Source: Williamsia sp. 1135 (GTDB taxonomy: Bacteria > Actinomycetota > Actinomycetes > Mycobacteriales > Mycobacteriaceae). From it: a stretch of DNA of 54,498 bases. The DNA lies in contig NZ_MJEI01000070.1 of assembly GCF_002095395.1 (NCBI RefSeq), positions 567 to 55,064 of the forward strand, given 5' to 3'. The translations under genes and the position numbers were made by a program. The notes beneath the pieces are model-generated. The model was not told where the DNA came from and made no database searches. It saw only the letters and a list, made by a program, of their open reading frames with translations. Within the stretch, counting starts at the first letter, position 1. Every line of letters begins with the position of its first letter. Positions 4,411 to 11,731 of the stretch are shown here, in pieces.

Positions 4411-4491
4411 TCGGTATGCGAGTTCCTCGATCACCGCCAGATGAGGTCTGAGCTGCGGTTTACTGACCTTCTGGCAACCGAGGGGAAGACG

Positions 4492-5298
4492 ATGAGCACC
4501 GACACCGATCGTGTCTCGCACACGCGGCCGGCGATGACGCAGGAACGGTGGATCGCGCTCACCGAGTGGCCGCTGGCCGTCGTGGGGGTCGTGTTCATCA
4601 CGGCGTACGCCGTCGAGGTGCTGGACGAACCGGCCGGTGTCTACGGCCGACTTCTCGAACTCACCATCTGGGTGTCCTGGGCGACCTTTGTGGTCGACTA
4701 CTTGGTCCGATTGATCCTGTCGGACAACAGAAGCCGGTGGTTCGCTCGTCATCTGCCGGAACTGCTGATCGTCGCTCTGCCGGTGCTGCGCCCGCTTCGG
4801 CTGCTGAGACTGCTCGCGGTACTGGCGGTGTTGCATCGGGTGACCGGACGCGCCATTCGCGGCCGAGTCCTGATGTTCACGGTGGTGACTGTCCTGGTCC
4901 TGATCTTCGTCGCATCGCTCGCGATCCTCGACACCGAACGCGACCGGGCCGACGCGACCATTCGGACGTTCGGGGATGCGCTGTGGTGGTCGATCACGAC
5001 GATCACCACGATCGGATATGGCGACTATTCCCCGACGACCCTCACCGGTCGAGTCATCGCCGTCGGGTTGATGATCGGCGGGATCAGCCTCATCGGTGTG
5101 GTCACCGCGACGATCGCAACCTGGATCGTCGAGCGGGTGAACGAAGACGACGAGGCCAACATGGTGGCGACCCGCAAGCAGATCAACGCATTGCATGCGG
5201 AGATCAGGGAACTGCGCGCCGACCTCGCTCGCGCGCCGGGCGCCGACACGGCGACGGACGGATCCGCTGTGCCGGTCGCCGACGGTCCCGCACCATAG
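4492..5298 (+). CDS. Voltage-gated-like potassium channel
   Basis: 268 aa. About residues 20-140 hold several hydrophobic helices, including an Arg/Leu-rich voltage-sensor-like stretch ([13 protein letters not shown]). A pore helix follows with the K+ selectivity filter TIGYGDYS at residues 173-180, then a last TM helix and a short coiled C-terminus ([17 protein letters not shown]). There is no cytoplasmic RCK/TrkA domain. ATG 4492 with AGGGGAAG upstream is preferred over the in-frame 4441 start. It probably carries K+ across the inner membrane. It is monocistronic, between a terminator and the catalase promoter region. Confidence 0.88.
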
Positions 5299-5458
5299 CG
5301 CTCCGGCGCGGTTTCGACCGGGACGTCTCCGGGTAAGGCTCCTTGGAGCGGCGGCTGTGCCTGGCTTTTCGATGCGCACGGCCGGTGCGCCCGCGGGGAC
5401 GTCGGCCTACAGCCCTAGGACCGGCGGTTCTACCGAACAACGACGGTCGGAGGCCGAT

Positions 5459-6976
5459 ATGCCAGACGAGCAGATTTACACCACCACGGATGCCGGAGCG
5501 CCTGTATCGAGCGATGAGCATTCATTGACCGTGGGTGCCGGTGGACCCATCGTGCTGCACGACCACTATCTGATCGAGCAGATGGCACAGTTCAACCGCG
5601 AGCGGATCCCGGAGCGCCAACCACACGCCAAGGGCAGCGGTGCCTTCGGTTCGTTCGAGGTGACCGGCGACGTATCGGGTTACACCAGTGCCGCCGTGTT
5701 CCAGCCGGGGACCACCACAGAGATGGCGGCGAGATTCTCCACGGTCGCGGGCGAGCGGGGCAGCCCCGACACCTGGCGTGACCCGCGTGGTTTCGCGCTG
5801 AAGTTCTACACCAGCGAGGGTGTGTACGACATGGTCGGCAACAACACGCCGGTCTTCTTCATCAAGGATCCGCTGAAGTTCCAGCACTTCATCCGATCCC
5901 AGAAGCGTCGCGCCGACAACAACCTTCGCGACCACGACATGCAATGGGACTTCTGGAGCCTGTCGCCGGAGTCGGCGCACCAGGTCACCTGGTTGATGGG
6001 TGATCGCGGTATTCCGCGCACGTGGCGGCACATGAACGGCTACAGCTCGCACACGTATCTCTGGGTCAATGCCGAAGGCATCAAGCACTGGGTGAAGTAC
6101 CACTTCATCACTGATCAGGGTCATCAGTTCTTCACGCAGGACGAGGCGGATCAGATGGCCTCGGCCGACACCGACTACCACACGCGGGACCTGTACGAGC
6201 ACATCGACAAGGGCGAGTTCCCGTCATGGACGTTGAAGGTGCAACTCATGCCGTTTGACGACGCCGCCTCGTACCGATTCAATCCCTTCGACCTGACGAA
6301 GGTCTGGCCGCACGGCGATTACCCGCTGGTGGAGGTCGGGAAGATGACGCTCAATCAAAACCCGACCGATCACCACACCCAGATCGAGCAGCTCGCCTTC
6401 GAGCCGAACAATCTGGTCCCGGGAATCGGGCTGAGCCCCGACCGGATGCTGTTGGCGCGCGGATTCGCCTACGCGGACGCCCACCGGTACCGCATCGGTG
6501 TCAACTACAAGCAGATCCCGGTCAACGCCTCCAAGTCTCCGGTGCACTCGTACTCCAAAGATGGTGCGATGCGGGTTCAGAACGTCTCTGACCCCGTGTA
6601 CGCACCGAACTCGAAGGGTGGCCCTGCAGCCACACAGGCGTTCCAGGTCGATCCCGGCTGGGCTGCCGACGGTCAGATCGTCCGTAGCGCATACGTGGAC
6701 CACCCTGAGGACGACGACTTCGGCCAGGCGGGCACCATGGTGCGGGAAGTGCTCGACGACGGCGAGCGAGAGAGGCTGGCCGACAACATCATCGGCCACC
6801 TCCTGAACGCTGTCAGCGAGCCGGTGCTCGAGCGGGCCTTCGAGTACTGGAACCGCGTCGACCCCGATCTGGGCAAGACCGTTCAAGAAGGCGTCCGGGC
6901 CAAGGCCGACGAGACCGACCCGAAGGCAGCGGACCAGGGGAACTCGGCGCGGAGCAGCATGCAAGAGAAGGCGTAG
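5459..6976 (+). CDS. katA: Monofunctional haem catalase, small-subunit clade 3
   Basis: 505 aa, the length of clade-3 catalases. It disproportionates H2O2 to water and O2 in the cytosol. Visible hallmarks: catalytic His56 in [13 protein letters not shown], distal Asn128/129 in [11 protein letters not shown], the proximal haem-ligand signature [12 protein letters not shown] with Tyr338, and the [12 protein letters not shown] region. ATG 5459 with GGAGG about 6 nt upstream was chosen; the frame continues far upstream without a start signal. Only 2 nt separate it from the HAD phosphatase gene, so it may be the first gene of the following operon. No OxyR or Fur box could be identified in the 160-nt upstream region. 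Confidence 0.95.
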
Positions 6977-6978
6977 AC

Positions 6979-7692
6979 GTGGGCGAGCAGGTCGCGATTC
7001 TCTTCGATGTCGATGGCACACTGGTTGATTCGGTGTACGCGCACGTGATCGCGTGGCGTGATGCCCTGTCCGACGTCGGCCTGACCGTACCCCTGTGGGA
7101 GGTCCATCGGCGGATCGGTATGGACGGGTCGCTGCTGATCGATGAACTGCTGCAGATCGCCGGGGTGAACGACGAAGCCCCCGGGCGTTCGGACATCGCG
7201 GATGCGGCGTCGTCGAAGCACAAGGAGATCTATCTGGCACGAGGGGACACGCTCGCGCTCCTACCCGGCGCGCGAGAGGTGGTGCGGCGTTCCAAAGAAC
7301 TCGGATTCGTCACGGTGCTCGCTACCTCTGCACCGGAAGATGAGCTAAAGCTGCTCCGGGACCTGCTCGATGTCGAAGAACACGTCGACGCAGTGACTTC
7401 GGGCGAGGATGTCGATACCGCGAAACCCGATGCAACGGTCGTGAAGATCGCCATCGAGCGTGCGGGCGTCTCACCCGCCAATGCCGTCATGGTGGGCGAC
7501 GCGACATGGGACTCGATCGCCGCCACGAAGGCGGGGGCGCGGTCGGTCGCGGTGCTGACCGGTGGGATCAGCGGCGACGCACTGCGCGGCGCCGGAGCCA
7601 AGCGGGTGTTTCAGGACAGCCTGCATCTCGCGCATGATCTCGACGCGACCGTGGAGAGCCTGACCGGTCAGCCCGGACGAAGTTCACGCTGA
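6979..7692 (+). CDS. HAD-superfamily phosphatase (phosphoglycolate-phosphatase-like)
   Basis: 237 aa from GTG 6979. HAD motif I is FDVDGTLVDS near the N-terminus, followed by a helical cap (about residues 20-85). Motif II lies around VLATSAPEDE, motif III is a Lys in TAKPD, and motif IV is MVGDATWDS. The Asp nucleophile predicts hydrolysis of a small phosphate ester; the substrate is not predictable. It starts 2 nt after katA and its stop overlaps the ATG of the glycosyltransferase gene by one base. It therefore either belongs to the five-gene cluster or links the catalase to it. Confidence 0.88.
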   Translation: MGEQVAILFDVDGTLVDSVYAHVIAWRDALSDVGLTVPLWEVHRRIGMDGSLLIDELLQIAGVNDEAPGRSDIADAASSKHKEIYLARGDTLALLPGAREVVRRSKELGFVTVLATSAPEDELKLLRDLLDVEEHVDAVTSGEDVDTAKPDATVVKIAIERAGVSPANAVMVGDATWDSIAATKAGARSVAVLTGGISGDALRGAGAKRVFQDSLHLAHDLDATVESLTGQPGRSSR

Positions 7693-8378
7693 TGGACAAG
7701 GGTCGAAGACCTGAGCAGATCGTCGTCGTGGTGCCTGCTCATAATGAGCAGGCACTACTGCCCTTCTGCCTGGAGTCGATCACCGCCTCCTCCGCCGAGA
7801 TCAGCTGTCCTGTCGAGGTGATCGTCGTGCTCGACGACTGCACCGACGGCACTGCGGCGTGCGTATCACCGCCGATCACGGCGGTCACGGTGTCGGGGCG
7901 ATCAGTGGGTCGAGCCCGGAAGGTCGGCTTCGAGACGAGCACGTGGGACGAGTCGACGTGGTTCGCGACCACCGATGCGGATTCGGTTGTTCCGGCCGAT
8001 TGGCTCGCCACACAGATCGACGCGGCGATCGGCGGTGCTGACGTGTTCGCCGGCACCGTCGTAGGCGATGACTGGGCACAGTGGCCCACCGAAGTGGCAG
8101 AACGTTTCTCTGCGGAATACCAGGCGAGTGACGGACACCGCCATGTTCACGGTGCCAACCTCGCAATGTGGGCGACGGTGTACTTCGGCGTCGGCGGTTT
8201 CGCACTTGTCGACCGCGACGAAGACGTGGACCTCGTGAACCGGTTACGCATTGCCGGGATGTCGATCGAGTGGAGCGCCCGGGCGCCGGTGATCACCTCG
8301 ACACGTCCGTACGGGCGCCTGGCCGGTGGTTTCGCCGACCATCTGCGCGGTCTGGAGAGCGCAGGTGAGGCGTCGTGA
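7692..8378 (+). CDS. Family-2 glycosyltransferase
   Basis: 228 aa. The GT-A fold is recognisable: nucleotide-sugar-binding start VVVVPAHNEQALLPFCL, a VIVVLDDCTDGT strand-loop, and the metal-binding DxD equivalent TTDADSVVP around residue 95. There is no membrane anchor, so it is a cytosolic enzyme. The donor and acceptor are unknown. It is translationally coupled on both sides: the ATG overlaps the preceding TGA by one base and its stop is inside the GTGA start of the acyl-CoA-dehydrogenase-like gene. Its neighbours suggest that it glycosylates a small intermediate that is then deacetylated and methylated. Confidence 0.88.
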   Translation: MDKGRRPEQIVVVVPAHNEQALLPFCLESITASSAEISCPVEVIVVLDDCTDGTAACVSPPITAVTVSGRSVGRARKVGFETSTWDESTWFATTDADSVVPADWLATQIDAAIGGADVFAGTVVGDDWAQWPTEVAERFSAEYQASDGHRHVHGANLAMWATVYFGVGGFALVDRDEDVDLVNRLRIAGMSIEWSARAPVITSTRPYGRLAGGFADHLRGLESAGEAS

Positions 8379-9340
8379 CACCATCGGCGGCCTACCGGGC
8401 CCTGCAGATCGTCGATTCGGGCGAACTCGCGGCACCCCTGCCGGGTCATGGTGACACCGCGACCCGCTTCCGAACCCTGGCAGAACTCACCCGATCGGAC
8501 ATCAGCGTCGGGCGGATGGTCGAAGCCCACCTCGATGCCGACGCCATCCTCGCGGAGATCGCCGGGTCCAGGACCGGCAACGGCGAATTGTGGGGTGTGT
8601 GGGCCGCAGAGCCGCCGTCTCACGTGCTCACGGCCCGTCGATTCGGCGACCGGTGGCAGCTGTCGGGAACCAAGCCGTGGTGTTCTGGAGCTGTCGGCTG
8701 TACACACGCGCTGGTGACCGCCCGCGACGGTGAGCGACGTCGACTGTTCGCCGTGGACTTGGCCCAGCACGGCGTCCATCCGCAATCCGACGGCTGGCAG
8801 AACGTCGGTATGGCCGCAACCGACACCGAGGCAGTCGAATTCGAGAACGCGGCTGCACAGGCCATCGGTGAGCCGGGCGACTACCTCGAGCGCGCAGGGT
8901 TCTGGCACGGCGGAGTAGGGGTCGCGTCGTGTTGGCTCGGCGGCGCGGCAAAGGTGGCGGAGGCCCTCTATGACAAGGCCCATGCCGACAGCGACGACAT
9001 CCTGATGATGCACCTCGGTGCGGTCGACGCGCTGCTCGCCGACGGCTGGGCACAGTTGCTGTGCGCCGCTGATGCCATCGACAAGGCCCCGACCGACGCC
9101 GCCTCGGCGCAGCGTCGGGCCTTCCGCGTGCGGTGGGGCATCGAGCAGATCGCAACGGCGGTGATCGATCGGGTGAACAGGGCGCTGGGACCGGCGCCGC
9201 TGGTGCGCTCTCGTGACCACGCGCAAGCGGTCGCCGATCTCGCTGTGTACATCAGGCAATCGCACGCGGACCACGACCTCGCCGCGCTGGGTCGACTCGT
9301 CGCAGGCCGTACGCCAGACGTCTTCGGAGACCGATCATGA
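8375..9340 (+). CDS. Short acyl-CoA-dehydrogenase-like protein
   Basis: 321 aa from a GTG overlapping the previous stop (GTGA). The middle region resembles the acyl-CoA dehydrogenase beta domain (LWGVWAAEPP; RWQLSGTKPWCSGA; FAVDL) and the C-terminal ~130 residues are helical as in the family. The protein is clearly shorter than the usual 380-400 aa, and I could not locate the usual catalytic Glu. It may oxidise a non-standard substrate or be catalytically altered. It lies between the glycosyltransferase and PIG-L deacetylase genes with 4-nt overlaps on both sides, so it acts in the same pathway rather than in ordinary beta-oxidation. Confidence 0.82.
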   Translation: MTPSAAYRALQIVDSGELAAPLPGHGDTATRFRTLAELTRSDISVGRMVEAHLDADAILAEIAGSRTGNGELWGVWAAEPPSHVLTARRFGDRWQLSGTKPWCSGAVGCTHALVTARDGERRRLFAVDLAQHGVHPQSDGWQNVGMAATDTEAVEFENAAAQAIGEPGDYLERAGFWHGGVGVASCWLGGAAKVAEALYDKAHADSDDILMMHLGAVDALLADGWAQLLCAADAIDKAPTDAASAQRRAFRVRWGIEQIATAVIDRVNRALGPAPLVRSRDHAQAVADLAVYIRQSHADHDLAALGRLVAGRTPDVFGDRS

Positions 9341-10107
9341 CGAGTACAGAGCGATTCGGGGTTGCCCCCGTCACCGACGTCGGCACGACAGAATCGGACT
9401 GGCAGCAATGGTTCTCGAAGCGCGCTGAGATCCCGAGGCTCGAGGCCGACCTGGAACGCCTCGTGGTGCTCGCCGCGCACCCGGACGACGAGATCCTGGG
9501 TGCGGGCGGCATCATGATCGCCGCTGCCGCAGCCGGTATCGAGGTGGTCACCGTGTGCCTGTCTGATGGCTCGGGATCGCACCCGGGGTCGCCTACCCAC
9601 TCTCCTGAGGATCTGGCGACCATCCGGCGCGGCGAATTGGACGCGGCCACAGACATCCTGGGGTTGGAGCATTCGGTCTGGGGCGGGCTGCCCGACGGCG
9701 CGCTCACCACCGCAGATGCCGCGATGACGCGCATCGTCGAATCGGTTCTCGACGAACGCCCGGACATGATCAGCGGGGTGCTGTCGGTCTGGGAGCACGA
9801 CGGCCATCCCGATCACGAGGCCGTGGGCCGGTGTGCCACCCGGATCTGCGGGGAACGTGGTCTGCCGCTGTGGCAATACCCAATCTGGATGTGGCACTGG
9901 GCGATTCCCGGCGAGGATACGATCGAATGGGACGCACTGCGGTCGCATCGCCTCGACGACGGCGCGATGGCGACCAAAACCGCAGCGGTGGAAGCCTTCA
10001 CATCGCAGATCCACCCGCTGTCCGACGCGGAGGCCGATCAGGTGGTGCTGCCCTCGCACATACTCGAACGGCTGCTTCGCCGCAACGAATACGTGTTCTC
10101 ACGGTGA
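9337..10107 (+). CDS. PIG-L family (GlcNAc-type) deacetylase
   Basis: 256 aa; ATG overlaps the preceding TGA (ATGA). PIG-L/LmbE proteins are Zn-dependent amidases that remove acetyl groups from GlcNAc conjugates, such as MshB, Mca and PIG-L. The metal-binding motif AAHPDDEILGAGG is at about residues 50-62, with the second motif DGHPDHEAVGR at about 150-160. About 45 residues precede the fold. It is not in a mycothiol locus, and its neighbours point to a different, unidentified glycoconjugate. The stop overlaps the GTG start of the methyltransferase gene. Confidence 0.92.
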   Translation: MTSTERFGVAPVTDVGTTESDWQQWFSKRAEIPRLEADLERLVVLAAHPDDEILGAGGIMIAAAAAGIEVVTVCLSDGSGSHPGSPTHSPEDLATIRRGELDAATDILGLEHSVWGGLPDGALTTADAAMTRIVESVLDERPDMISGVLSVWEHDGHPDHEAVGRCATRICGERGLPLWQYPIWMWHWAIPGEDTIEWDALRSHRLDDGAMATKTAAVEAFTSQIHPLSDAEADQVVLPSHILERLLRRNEYVFSR

Positions 10108-10709
10108 CGCACATGGAGGAGAGCTACTTTCACGAGATGTATCGCGACAGCGACGATCCGTGGGGTTTCACCAGTCGCTGGTACGAGCAGCGCAAATATC
10201 AGATGACATTGGCGGCCTTGTCGGCCCCGCGATACGGCAGGGCGTTCGAAGCAGGTTGTTCCATCGGCGTGCTCAGTGAGCATTTGGCGGCTCGATGCGA
10301 CCAGTTGCTCGCGGTGGACCTCAGCGACAAGGCAGTGCAGATCGCCGCTGGGCGTCTGGAGCCGCTCGGCGGGCGAGTAGTTGTCGAGACGCGCGATTTC
10401 GTCGTCGACTGGCCGACAGGAACGTTCGACCTCATCGTTCTCAGCGAAGTCCTCTACTATCTCGACCCCGCACAACTCGACAGCGTCATCGCGAATGCGG
10501 CGGCAGCGCTGTCCGATGACGGTGAGTTGATCGCGGTGCACTGGCGCTGGCCGGTCGAGGAATATCCGCAGACCGGCGATCAGGTGCATGATCGGTTGAG
10601 AGACTCGGAGTTGGCCCATACGGCCGGATATCTCGACACCGACTTCCGTCTCGACGTCTTCTCGCGGGTGGACCGGCAGTCCGTGGCGCAGCGAGAGGGA
10701 TTGGTCTGA
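10104..10709 (+). CDS. NodS-like SAM-dependent methyltransferase
   Basis: 201 aa from GTG 10104, overlapping the deacetylase stop (GTGA). Class I fold: SAM-binding motif I FEAGCSIGVLSEHLA, acidic motif II (LLAVDLS), and FDLIVLSEVLYYL for motif IV. It most resembles NodS, the N-methyltransferase that acts on the amino group freed by deacetylation of a chito-oligosaccharide. The preceding PIG-L deacetylase fits the same chemistry: free an amine, then methylate it. It is the last gene of the coupled cluster; the WYL regulator gene follows on the other strand. Confidence 0.88.
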   Translation: MTHMEESYFHEMYRDSDDPWGFTSRWYEQRKYQMTLAALSAPRYGRAFEAGCSIGVLSEHLAARCDQLLAVDLSDKAVQIAAGRLEPLGGRVVVETRDFVVDWPTGTFDLIVLSEVLYYLDPAQLDSVIANAAAALSDDGELIAVHWRWPVEEYPQTGDQVHDRLRDSELAHTAGYLDTDFRLDVFSRVDRQSVAQREGLV

Positions 10710-10743: not shown

Positions 10744-11712
10744 TCAGGCGTTGCGGTAGCGGTCTGCGATCTTGAGGTGATGGTCAGCCAAACCGGCGCA
10801 TTCCTCGCGGAGTTCGGCGGGCCCGATCACGGTGAAGTCGGCGTCGAAAGCGTGAAGCCACCGCGCTATCGAGCTGACGGATTGTCCGAAAAGTGCTACC
10901 TCGCAACTGTTCACATCACCCGACTCGACCACACCCCACTCTGCGTCGACCATCTCGGCCACCTGCTCGAGCGGGCTGTGGATCTCGACGCGCGCCGTGG
11001 CCTGCCGATACACCGAACCCAGGCTCCGGGCGACGTACGCAGCGGCACCACCTTCCGGTAGCTCCCGTGGAACGAAGCGGGGTCCGGTCGGAATCTTCGG
11101 CGTGAGCCGGTCGACCCGGAATGATCGCCAGTCGTCGCGGCCGAGATCCCATGCCAAGAGATACCACCGTAAACCGCTGCGCACCAGTCGATATGGTTCG
11201 ACCTCCCGGCGACTCTCCGCGCCACCGCGAGCCCGATAGTCGAAGCGAAGTCGCTCGTGCCGGTGGCAGACCGCAGCGACGTCGGACAGCACCGCGGCCT
11301 CGACTTGGGAGACCGGCGCCCGCGTCGGGGTGGCGTCGACCTGCAGCGAGTCGAGCCGGTGCCGCAGTCGCGACGGCATCACCTGGCGGAGTTTGGACAT
11401 GGCCCGCACCGATGCCTCGTCGAGTCCGGCCACTGAACCGGTGGCTCCCGCACCCAGCCCGAGGGCCACGGCCAGCACCTCCTGGTCGTCGAGCAGTAGC
11501 GGTGGCATCTCGGCGCCGGCGCCCAGTTGATACCCGCCGCCGACTCCGACGCTCGCCTCTACCGGGTACCCGAGCTCGCGTAACCGGTCGACATCGCGGC
11601 GCACCGTTCGCGTCGTGATGTCCAATCGTTCCGCCAGATCTGCTCCTGACCAGTCCTTGCGTGTTTGCAACAGGCTCAGTAGGCGGAGCAGTCGCGCTGA
11701 GGTGTCCAACAT
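10744..11712 (-). CDS. WYL-domain transcriptional regulator (DeoR-type HTH)
   Basis: 322 aa. An N-terminal winged helix (about residues 1-60: RLLRLLSLLQTRKDWSGADL, then TTRTVRRDVDRLRELGY) is followed by a linker and a WYL ligand-binding region (LRFDYRARGG; YRLVRSGLRWYLLAWD) and a C-terminal extension. ATG 11712 has GGA 5 nt upstream; a GTG at 11721 is an alternative. WYL regulators bind an unknown ligand, often a nucleotide, and commonly repress a divergent operon. Here the divergent partner is a DrrAB-like exporter, and a perfect 9-bp palindrome lies 20 nt upstream of this start. Confidence 0.9.
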   Translation of the reverse strand: MLDTSARLLRLLSLLQTRKDWSGADLAERLDITTRTVRRDVDRLRELGYPVEASVGVGGGYQLGAGAEMPPLLLDDQEVLAVALGLGAGATGSVAGLDEASVRAMSKLRQVMPSRLRHRLDSLQVDATPTRAPVSQVEAAVLSDVAAVCHRHERLRFDYRARGGAESRREVEPYRLVRSGLRWYLLAWDLGRDDWRSFRVDRLTPKIPTGPRFVPRELPEGGAAAYVARSLGSVYRQATARVEIHSPLEQVAEMVDAEWGVVESGDVNSCEVALFGQSVSSIARWLHAFDADFTVIGPAELREECAGLADHHLKIADRYRNA

Positions 11713-11731
11713 GTTTTCCACAATGCCAGAG

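Follow-up and report, generated by a model that had tools for sequence, protein, structure and literature searches.

Organization of the locus

This study concerns a group of overlapping genes in Williamsia sp. 1135 that appear to form a biosynthetic cassette. They lie in a stretch of 54,498 nucleotides (contig NZ_MJEI01000070.1, positions 567 to 55,064 of the forward strand), which we call the window and number from its first letter. Five open reading frames (ORFs) on the plus strand encode a HAD phosphatase-like protein, a GT2 glycosyltransferase (GT), a flavoprotein with the acyl-CoA dehydrogenase fold (ACAD), a PIG-L deacetylase, and a NodS-family methyltransferase (MT), and they overlap at their successive junctions by 1, 4, 4, and 4 nt. 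The ORF positions and the Pfam scores, all above the family cut-offs, bear out the families, coordinates, and overlaps given in a preliminary description of this DNA. The overlaps suggest that the five enzymes are made in step. The stop codon of a catalase gene lies 2 nt before the HAD start, and because only 2 nt separate the two genes, the catalase probably belongs to the same operon as the HAD and core genes. The features are listed below.

5311..5336, plus strand: candidate SigB/SigF-type promoter, GTTT-N16-GGGTAA, within the 160-nt gap before the catalase gene
5459..6976, plus strand: monofunctional haem catalase (Pfam Catalase, 602 bits), first gene of the putative operon
6979..7692, plus strand: HAD-family phosphatase-like protein, accessory (Pfam HAD_2, 90.8 bits)
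7692..8378, plus strand: GT2 glycosyltransferase, core, 228 amino acids (Pfam Glycos_transf_2, 56.3 bits)
8375..9340, plus strand: ACAD-fold flavoprotein, core, 321 amino acids (Pfam Acyl-CoA_dh_M, 35.8 bits; AlphaFold and Foldseek)
9337..10107, plus strand: PIG-L/LmbE-family N-deacetylase, core (Pfam PIG-L, 95.8 bits)
10104..10709, plus strand: NodS-family S-adenosylmethionine (SAM)-dependent MT, core, GTG start (Pfam NodS, 63.7 bits)

The promoter-like site is the sole strict match to GTTTN14-17GGGTAW on either strand of the window, with about 0.002 matches expected in that gap; we take this consensus to be that of promoters read by general stress sigma factors of the SigB/SigF type. None of the five proteins reaches an NCBIfam equivalog cut-off, so NCBIfam names no pathway for them.

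A conserved four-gene unit

The conserved unit consists of the genes for GT2, ACAD, PIG-L, and MT, and the HAD gene is a local addition. Named actinobacterial loci were found with an ACAD profile (the best 80 of 577 relatives), and the core was scored as complete when all four genes were on one strand within 3.5 kb of the ACAD gene. This was so in 54 of the 80 loci, far more than chance would give; 6 were incomplete at a contig end and 20 were incomplete otherwise. Three gene orders occur among the complete loci: GT-ACAD-PIGL-MT in 40, ACAD-PIGL-MT-GT in 13, and PIGL-GT-ACAD-MT in 1. Among 61 genomes (Williamsia sp. 1135 and 60 relatives), 28 strong ACAD loci (L007 to L034), viewed with flanks of only 1.5 kb, included 17 with a complete core, and PIG-L and MT were each present in 24; in three of them (L023, L025, and L032) PIG-L and MT are fused in one ORF. 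A HAD gene stands upstream of GT in all five cassettes of the genus (the window and L008 to L011) and in two Williamsia loci (L068 and L105), and further HAD matches near cassettes are on the opposite strand (L029) or more distant. The five-gene cluster of the preliminary description thus holds as a four-gene core, and its idea that the HAD enzyme removes a phosphate as an integral step is rejected, as HAD is not conserved with the cassette.

Loci centred on ACAD cannot reveal loss of ACAD with the other core genes retained, whereas a search with MT can. Across 296 genomes of the phylum, scored at E at most 1e-18, ACAD and MT occur together in 30, ACAD only in 2, MT only in 3, and neither in 261 (Fisher P 2.3e-35, uncorrected for relatedness). 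When compared by hand, the two genes were on one contig and at most 2 kb apart in all 30 genomes having both. One of the three MT-only genomes has a weak 73-bit match, and the other two are assemblies of 570 and 120 contigs.

The core also recurs in Pseudomonadota, Deinococcota (Deinococcus), and Cyanobacteriota (Nostoc), which together with Actinomycetota makes four phyla. Co-occurrence outside the genus, proposed earlier as a check, is therefore found, a feature confined to the genus is rejected, and the window alone could not have shown how large and old the system is. Cassettes are carried on plasmids of Acinetobacter, Pandoraea, Comamonas, Cupriavidus, Legionella lytica, Sulfitobacter, Paracoccus, Novosphingobium, Sphingomonas, Komagataeibacter, Bradyrhizobium, Jiella, Deinococcus NW-56, and Nostoc UHCC 0926. 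Their layout varies: GT is on the opposite strand in Komagataeibacter, Bradyrhizobium, Jiella, Deinococcus, and Nostoc, PIG-L is divergent in Cupriavidus, and in Pandoraea GT is split into two unannotated pieces. In Deinococcus radiodurans, ACAD-PIGL is followed by a helicase gene and then by MT; an ACAD relative of this species (L152, 1187-3526) has an extra N-terminal part of about 420 amino acids without a Pfam match. Counts for plasmid cassettes refer to the 16 loci viewed (L037 to L040, L157 to L161, L163, L164, L168, L170, L171, L216, and L217), for which flanks of 6 to 8 kb were requested; L041 and L162 (an ACAD relative with no cassette beside it), L152 to L156 (partial or fused), and Nostoc L169 (no gene table) were left out.

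Replacement of the deacetylase

In 16 loci from 16 actinobacterial genomes (L136 to L151; 15 of family f32 and 1 of f23), ACAD is adjacent to MT with no PIG-L in the 1.5-kb flanks, and in all 16 a polysaccharide deacetylase gene lies directly upstream of ACAD. The best NCBIfam model for this protein is NodB (112 bits, equivalog cut-off 240); a NodB-like protein occurs only in this variant, PIG-L taking that place in the window. Cassette-type PIG-L was not found in these 16 genomes or in 4 more f32 genomes with MT (best score, 57 bits), against 138 to 281 bits in genomes with PIG-L cassettes. That two unrelated deacetylases occupy the same place argues that what the pathway requires is sugar N-deacetylation, in which an amino sugar loses its acetyl group. 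This backs the logic of the preliminary description, in which a glycoside is made, an N-acetyl group is removed, and the freed amine is methylated, and it leads to a definite prediction in chemical terms, namely that an N-deacetylated amino sugar is formed.

A gene for an NAD(P)H-FAD oxidoreductase (Pyr_redox_2) lies downstream of MT in 15 of the 16 NodB-type loci, and the sixteenth ends at a contig end. GT follows the oxidoreductase in the three loci that were fetched longer, where the HcaD-like protein is encoded at 4700-5884 (L208), 4710-5723 (L209), and 7379-8329 (L210). Its nearest NCBIfam model, below cut-off, is a ferredoxin reductase, and it is a candidate electron donor for the flavoprotein. 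An oxidoreductase 44% identical to it is encoded beside ACAD in a mycobacterial metagenome-assembled genome (L062, 8954-10084).

The flavoprotein

The AlphaFold model of the window protein (pLDDT 93.7) has the ACAD fold, and its top 50 fold matches include ACADs and their relatives at query TM-scores of 0.66 to 0.81 and at 14 to 21% identity. DszC and MsuC come first in Foldseek, and the ranking alone is indecisive because acyl-CoA dehydrogenases score close behind, as do ColB1, KijD3, and DnmZ. A CSGA motif is common to the window protein and DszC (GTKHFCSGA in DszC). C103, S104, and G105 are invariant in all 48 near rows of the alignment, which are the window protein itself plus 47 of the other 71 ACADs retained (extracted sets exclude proteins that lie at a contig end or fall outside the length limits, which left 72 of 81 ACADs). 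The 25 wider rows have CSGA in 15, CSLA in 5, and another sequence in 5, with the serine present in every one. Aligned by profile with 13 ACADs from its own genome, the window protein has Ile293 at the place of their catalytic glutamate, with a three-column gap nearby and the exact column uncertain, and no acidic residue occurs within positions 293 to 297. R294, Q295, and H297 are invariant in the 48 near rows, and H297 is kept in 23 of the 25 wider rows. In the model it lies on the loop that joins the final two helices, and it may match a C-terminal active-site histidine of DszC; the profile alignments stop short of that histidine.

Based on the CSGA motif, Ile293 in place of the glutamate, the R294-Q295-x-H297 residues, and the reductase gene in the NodB-type operons, the protein is probably a flavin monooxygenase or oxidase and not an acyl-CoA dehydrogenase. 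In motif and model it seems most similar to DszC-type monooxygenases. The preliminary description had suggested that a flavin dehydrogenase acts on an acyl or backbone part and had proposed to see whether the catalytic base is retained. The fold is confirmed, and Ile293 probably stands where the base would be; the residues point away from acyl-CoA dehydrogenation, and motif and profile alignment disfavour a lipid or acyl-CoA role. Genes annotated as acyl-CoA dehydrogenases in this group are probably not such.

The glycosyltransferase, deacetylase, and methyltransferase

The GT model (pLDDT 94.4) has a GT-A fold, its best Foldseek matches are glycosyltransferases with WrtF first, and D95, D97, E177, and D178 of the D-x-D and E-D motifs are invariant in all 44 sequences. 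NodC is not among the five NCBIfam matches of the window GT. In PIG-L, the metal-site motifs HPDDE (48-52) and HPDH (157-160) are invariant in 20 of 20 sequences; the closest solved structures are TT1542 and diacetylchitobiose deacetylase, and the best NCBIfam model is BshB1 (67 bits, cut-off 182.5).

The MT profile matches 4isc first among PDB entries (214 bits; an unnamed methyltransferase) and then NodS, 3ofj (95 bits). The window MT exceeds the Pfam NodS cut-off of 24 bits, and it scores 66.5 with the NCBIfam NodS equivalog, whose cut-off is 300. By these scores the MT belongs to the NodS family but is probably not NodS itself. In a midpoint-rooted tree of 44 MTs, three rhizobial NodS proteins group with three fusion proteins (support 91/94), and this group is nested (99/97) with MTs of alphaproteobacterial, Legionella, Deinococcus, Nostoc, and NodB-type cassettes; the NodS branch is long (2.5) in this tree without an outgroup, and the placement of NodS is not firm.

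Neighbouring stress genes and regulation

Several cassettes lie among stress genes. A catalase gene is near 5 of the 16 plasmid cassettes (L039, L040, L157, L160, and L163), with examples in Sulfitobacter, Novosphingobium, Cupriavidus, Sphingomonas, and Acinetobacter, and a trehalose or GlgE gene is near 6 (L039, L158, L160, L161, L216, and L217). One or the other is found near 9 of the 16, in a set that includes two Comamonas and two Acinetobacter. In the two Comamonas the cassette sits between otsA and otsB, and in Legionella lytica otsB, a GH65 gene, and the cassette stand in line. otsA/otsB are near the cassette in the two Acinetobacter, and glgE is near that of Cupriavidus basilensis. Of the 80 named actinobacterial loci, 11 include a catalase gene, against about 0.6% expected by chance at the density of the Williamsia sp. 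1135 genome (2 catalases found in 5.98 Mb).

Of 79 actinobacterial loci, 11 have a relaxed form of the SigB/SigF motif upstream where 1.7 would be expected (Poisson P 2e-6, without regard to relatedness), and 16 have a looser one (4.2 expected). A BLUF-domain gene (L168, 601-1032) is found near the Bradyrhizobium cassette, and blsA of Acinetobacter baumannii presumably encodes a BLUF photoreceptor. Genes for a GT, a methyltransferase, an LmbE-like protein, and an acyl-CoA dehydrogenase are reported to stand beside blsA (PMC6240043). ACICU_02432 to ACICU_02435 of A. baumannii (annotated as GT, MT, LmbE, and ACAD-related; operon 'e', Table 2) are reported to be down 31- to 62-fold in two colistin-dependent mutants, and otsA, otsB, and catalase fall together with them (PMC5660220).

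Proposed pathway

We propose, with a probability of roughly two in three, that the core encodes a general-stress biosynthetic pathway to an N-methyl-glucosaminyl-type conjugate. GT2 would add an N-acetyl-amino sugar, most likely N-acetylglucosamine, to a cytoplasmic acceptor, PIG-L or in one lineage the NodB-like enzyme would remove the acetyl group, and the NodS-family MT would methylate the freed amine. The ACAD-fold flavoprotein, probably a reduced-flavin monooxygenase, would oxidise the conjugate or, more likely, the acceptor. We infer the reactions, donor, acceptor, step order, product, and protective role; expression of the four genes is probably under stress control. As the cassette recurs in four phyla, partly beside catalase or trehalose genes, the compound should matter for survival. 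The preliminary description knew of no such pathway, and among the matches listed, our searches of open full-text literature likewise gave no description of pathway, product, or phenotype.

Several observations weigh against this proposal. Neither catalase nor trehalose genes are near 7 of the 16 plasmid cassettes. Only 11 of the 80 named actinobacterial loci gave a catalase, 9 of these being mycobacterial (16 of the 80 are less than 16 kb long), and the actinobacterial loci tested gave no OtsA, OtsB, or GlgE match and only a weak GH65 match in L116. The relaxed promoter motif is absent at 68 of the 79 loci, and the strict one, present at 1 of 79 with 0.35 expected, is not clearly enriched. 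The A. baumannii data come from colistin-dependent mutants and not from a stress experiment, and its genes were matched to the cassette by annotation and order only (PMC5660220).

Partial cassettes also weigh on that side. In Mycobacterium simulans, M. angelicum, M. simiae, and M. asiaticum, ACAD is intact (L055, L056, L065, and L081, at about 7974-8920), and cassette-type GT, PIG-L, and MT were not found genome-wide, so that ACAD is able to act in the absence of the other core enzymes in these four slow mycobacteria. In 10 further mycobacterial genomes ACAD is accompanied by PIG-L and/or MT, and no GT was found except for two weak paralogues of 80 bits; MT was not found in 6 of these 10. GT remnants persist at some of the GT-less loci.

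The lone ACAD of slow mycobacteria is under strong purifying selection. Median dN/dS of ACAD, by NG86 and rough because dS is near or above 1 in many pairs, was 0.130 in full mycobacterial cassettes (12 loci), 0.131 in GT-less ones (9 loci), and 0.082 where ACAD is alone (5 loci, 10 pairs, including L086, which starts 1.3 kb before ACAD and where the search for partners covered the locus). Relaxed selection after partner loss was thus not seen for lone or GT-less ACADs. The median was 0.344 in five mixed Gordonia and mycobacterial loci with GT and ACAD only. Gordonia sputi and G. otitidis keep GT-ACAD, have PIG-L on another contig, and gave no MT match. The idea that steps are lost strictly from the pathway's end is not upheld, as L077, L083, and L093 have PIG-L and MT without GT; their MTs are shorter (185, 185, and 195 amino acids), and the genome match for one of them carries a flag for an in-frame stop. 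ACAD thus appears to be useful even where the sugar steps are lacking. This speaks for the acceptor as its substrate rather than the completed sugar, or for an additional function.

Alternative explanations and nearest known systems

The trehalose genes beside the cassettes of Comamonas, L. lytica, Acinetobacter, and C. basilensis and the joint expression with otsA/otsB in A. baumannii (PMC5660220) would fit an acceptor that is trehalose or a trehalose-derived glycoside, with the cassette making an N-methylaminosugar-trehalose oligosaccharide from part of the stress trehalose pool. We regard this as unlikely: the actinobacterial loci tested show no such genes beyond the weak GH65 match, and catalase is found beside cassettes just as commonly, so the association is accounted for no less well by shared regulation. 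Catalase itself, 2 nt upstream of HAD in the window and near the cassette in several lineages, had led to the suggestion that H2O2 is made; ACAD would then be an H2O2-producing oxidase whose by-product the catalase clears. Such an oxidase is improbable. The catalases are of more than one type (a short form in the window, a long one in a mycobacterium), and their orientation varies between lineages. Their position varies as well: in Cupriavidus the gene belongs to a divergent unit together with PIG-L, whereas in Acinetobacter it is about 5 kb from the cassette. None was found in 69 of the 80 named loci, short loci included. Because of this variation, the trehalose genes elsewhere, and the joint fall in Acinetobacter (PMC5660220), H2O2 production is less likely than shared stress regulation.

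It is doubtful that the product is a Nod-factor-like lipo-oligosaccharide, for which GT2 would make a short chitin-like chain, the deacetylase and NodS-family MT would tailor its end, and ACAD would act on the acyl chain. The three enzymes do correspond in kind to NodC, NodB, and NodS, diacetylchitobiose deacetylase is among the close PIG-L structures, and NodB is the best model for the replacement deacetylase. However, the window GT has 228 residues compared with 452 for Rhizobium tropici NodC, most cassettes have PIG-L for NodB, and ACAD lacks the dehydrogenase glutamate. The flavoprotein stands in NodA's stead; no NodA-type gene was found among the window genes tested with Pfam or annotated at the 16 plasmid loci, whose gene tables are incomplete. 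The cassette has stress gene neighbours and no symbiosis. A pathway to a low-molecular-weight thiol or redox cofactor seems very improbable. Mycothiol and bacillithiol are likewise made by glycosylation and PIG-L-type deacetylation, and BshB1 is the best model for the window PIG-L, but MshA and BshA are of GT4 type and the cassette has a GT2, an added MT, and a flavoprotein, with no cysteine ligase annotated in the plasmid loci viewed (gene table incomplete). Our preferred reading remains the stress-linked N-methyl-glucosaminyl-type conjugate.

Other systems share parts of the cassette. The DszC/TdsC/MsuC and KijD3/DnmZ flavin-dependent monooxygenases share the ACAD fold and give the top Foldseek and profile matches, with CSGA as in DszC, and the reductase gene of the NodB-type operons is a further likeness; the cassette ACAD, with 321 residues compared with about 400, is shorter and distant in sequence. 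By analogy with KijD3 and DnmZ, the flavoprotein may act on the freed sugar amine by N-oxygenation. In A. baumannii, ACICU_02432 to ACICU_02435 resemble the cassette in having all four kinds of gene in one operon, by annotation and order; the accessible part of that report lists them as down-regulated only and proposes no function (PMC5660220).

Proteins that NCBI names trifunctional glycosyltransferase/class I SAM-dependent methyltransferase/polysaccharide deacetylase join a GT2, a NodS-type MT, and a deacetylase in Gloeothece, Sulfitobacter, and Sinorhizobium. They differ from the cassette in having a polysaccharide deacetylase for PIG-L, and no ACAD is annotated beside the fusion in the three loci viewed. 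A speculative extension, to which we give rather little weight, is that the cassettes of the four phyla make a new class of stress metabolite, an oxidised N-methyl-glucosaminyl conjugate, and that NodS derived from this older, widespread MT family. If true, a stress-protection pathway was the source of part of the signal in rhizobial symbiosis. This offers a testable origin for NodS, and the number of genes is small enough for in vitro reconstitution.

Further observations

In many mycobacteria, including those with ACAD alone, the cassette or what is left of it is followed by a gene of the exonuclease/endonuclease/phosphatase family encoding about 254 amino acids (L054 to L056, L060, L063 to L065, L070, L072, L073, L076 to L078, L080, L081, L083, L086, L093, L097, L101 to L103, and L119). 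For L017 and L027, a same-family match in G036 and a same-order match in G038 each carry a flag for a single TGA within the alignment. In the window, the operon is preceded by a predicted ion-channel gene (4441-5298) and followed by a gene for a WYL-type regulator on the opposite strand (10744-11721).

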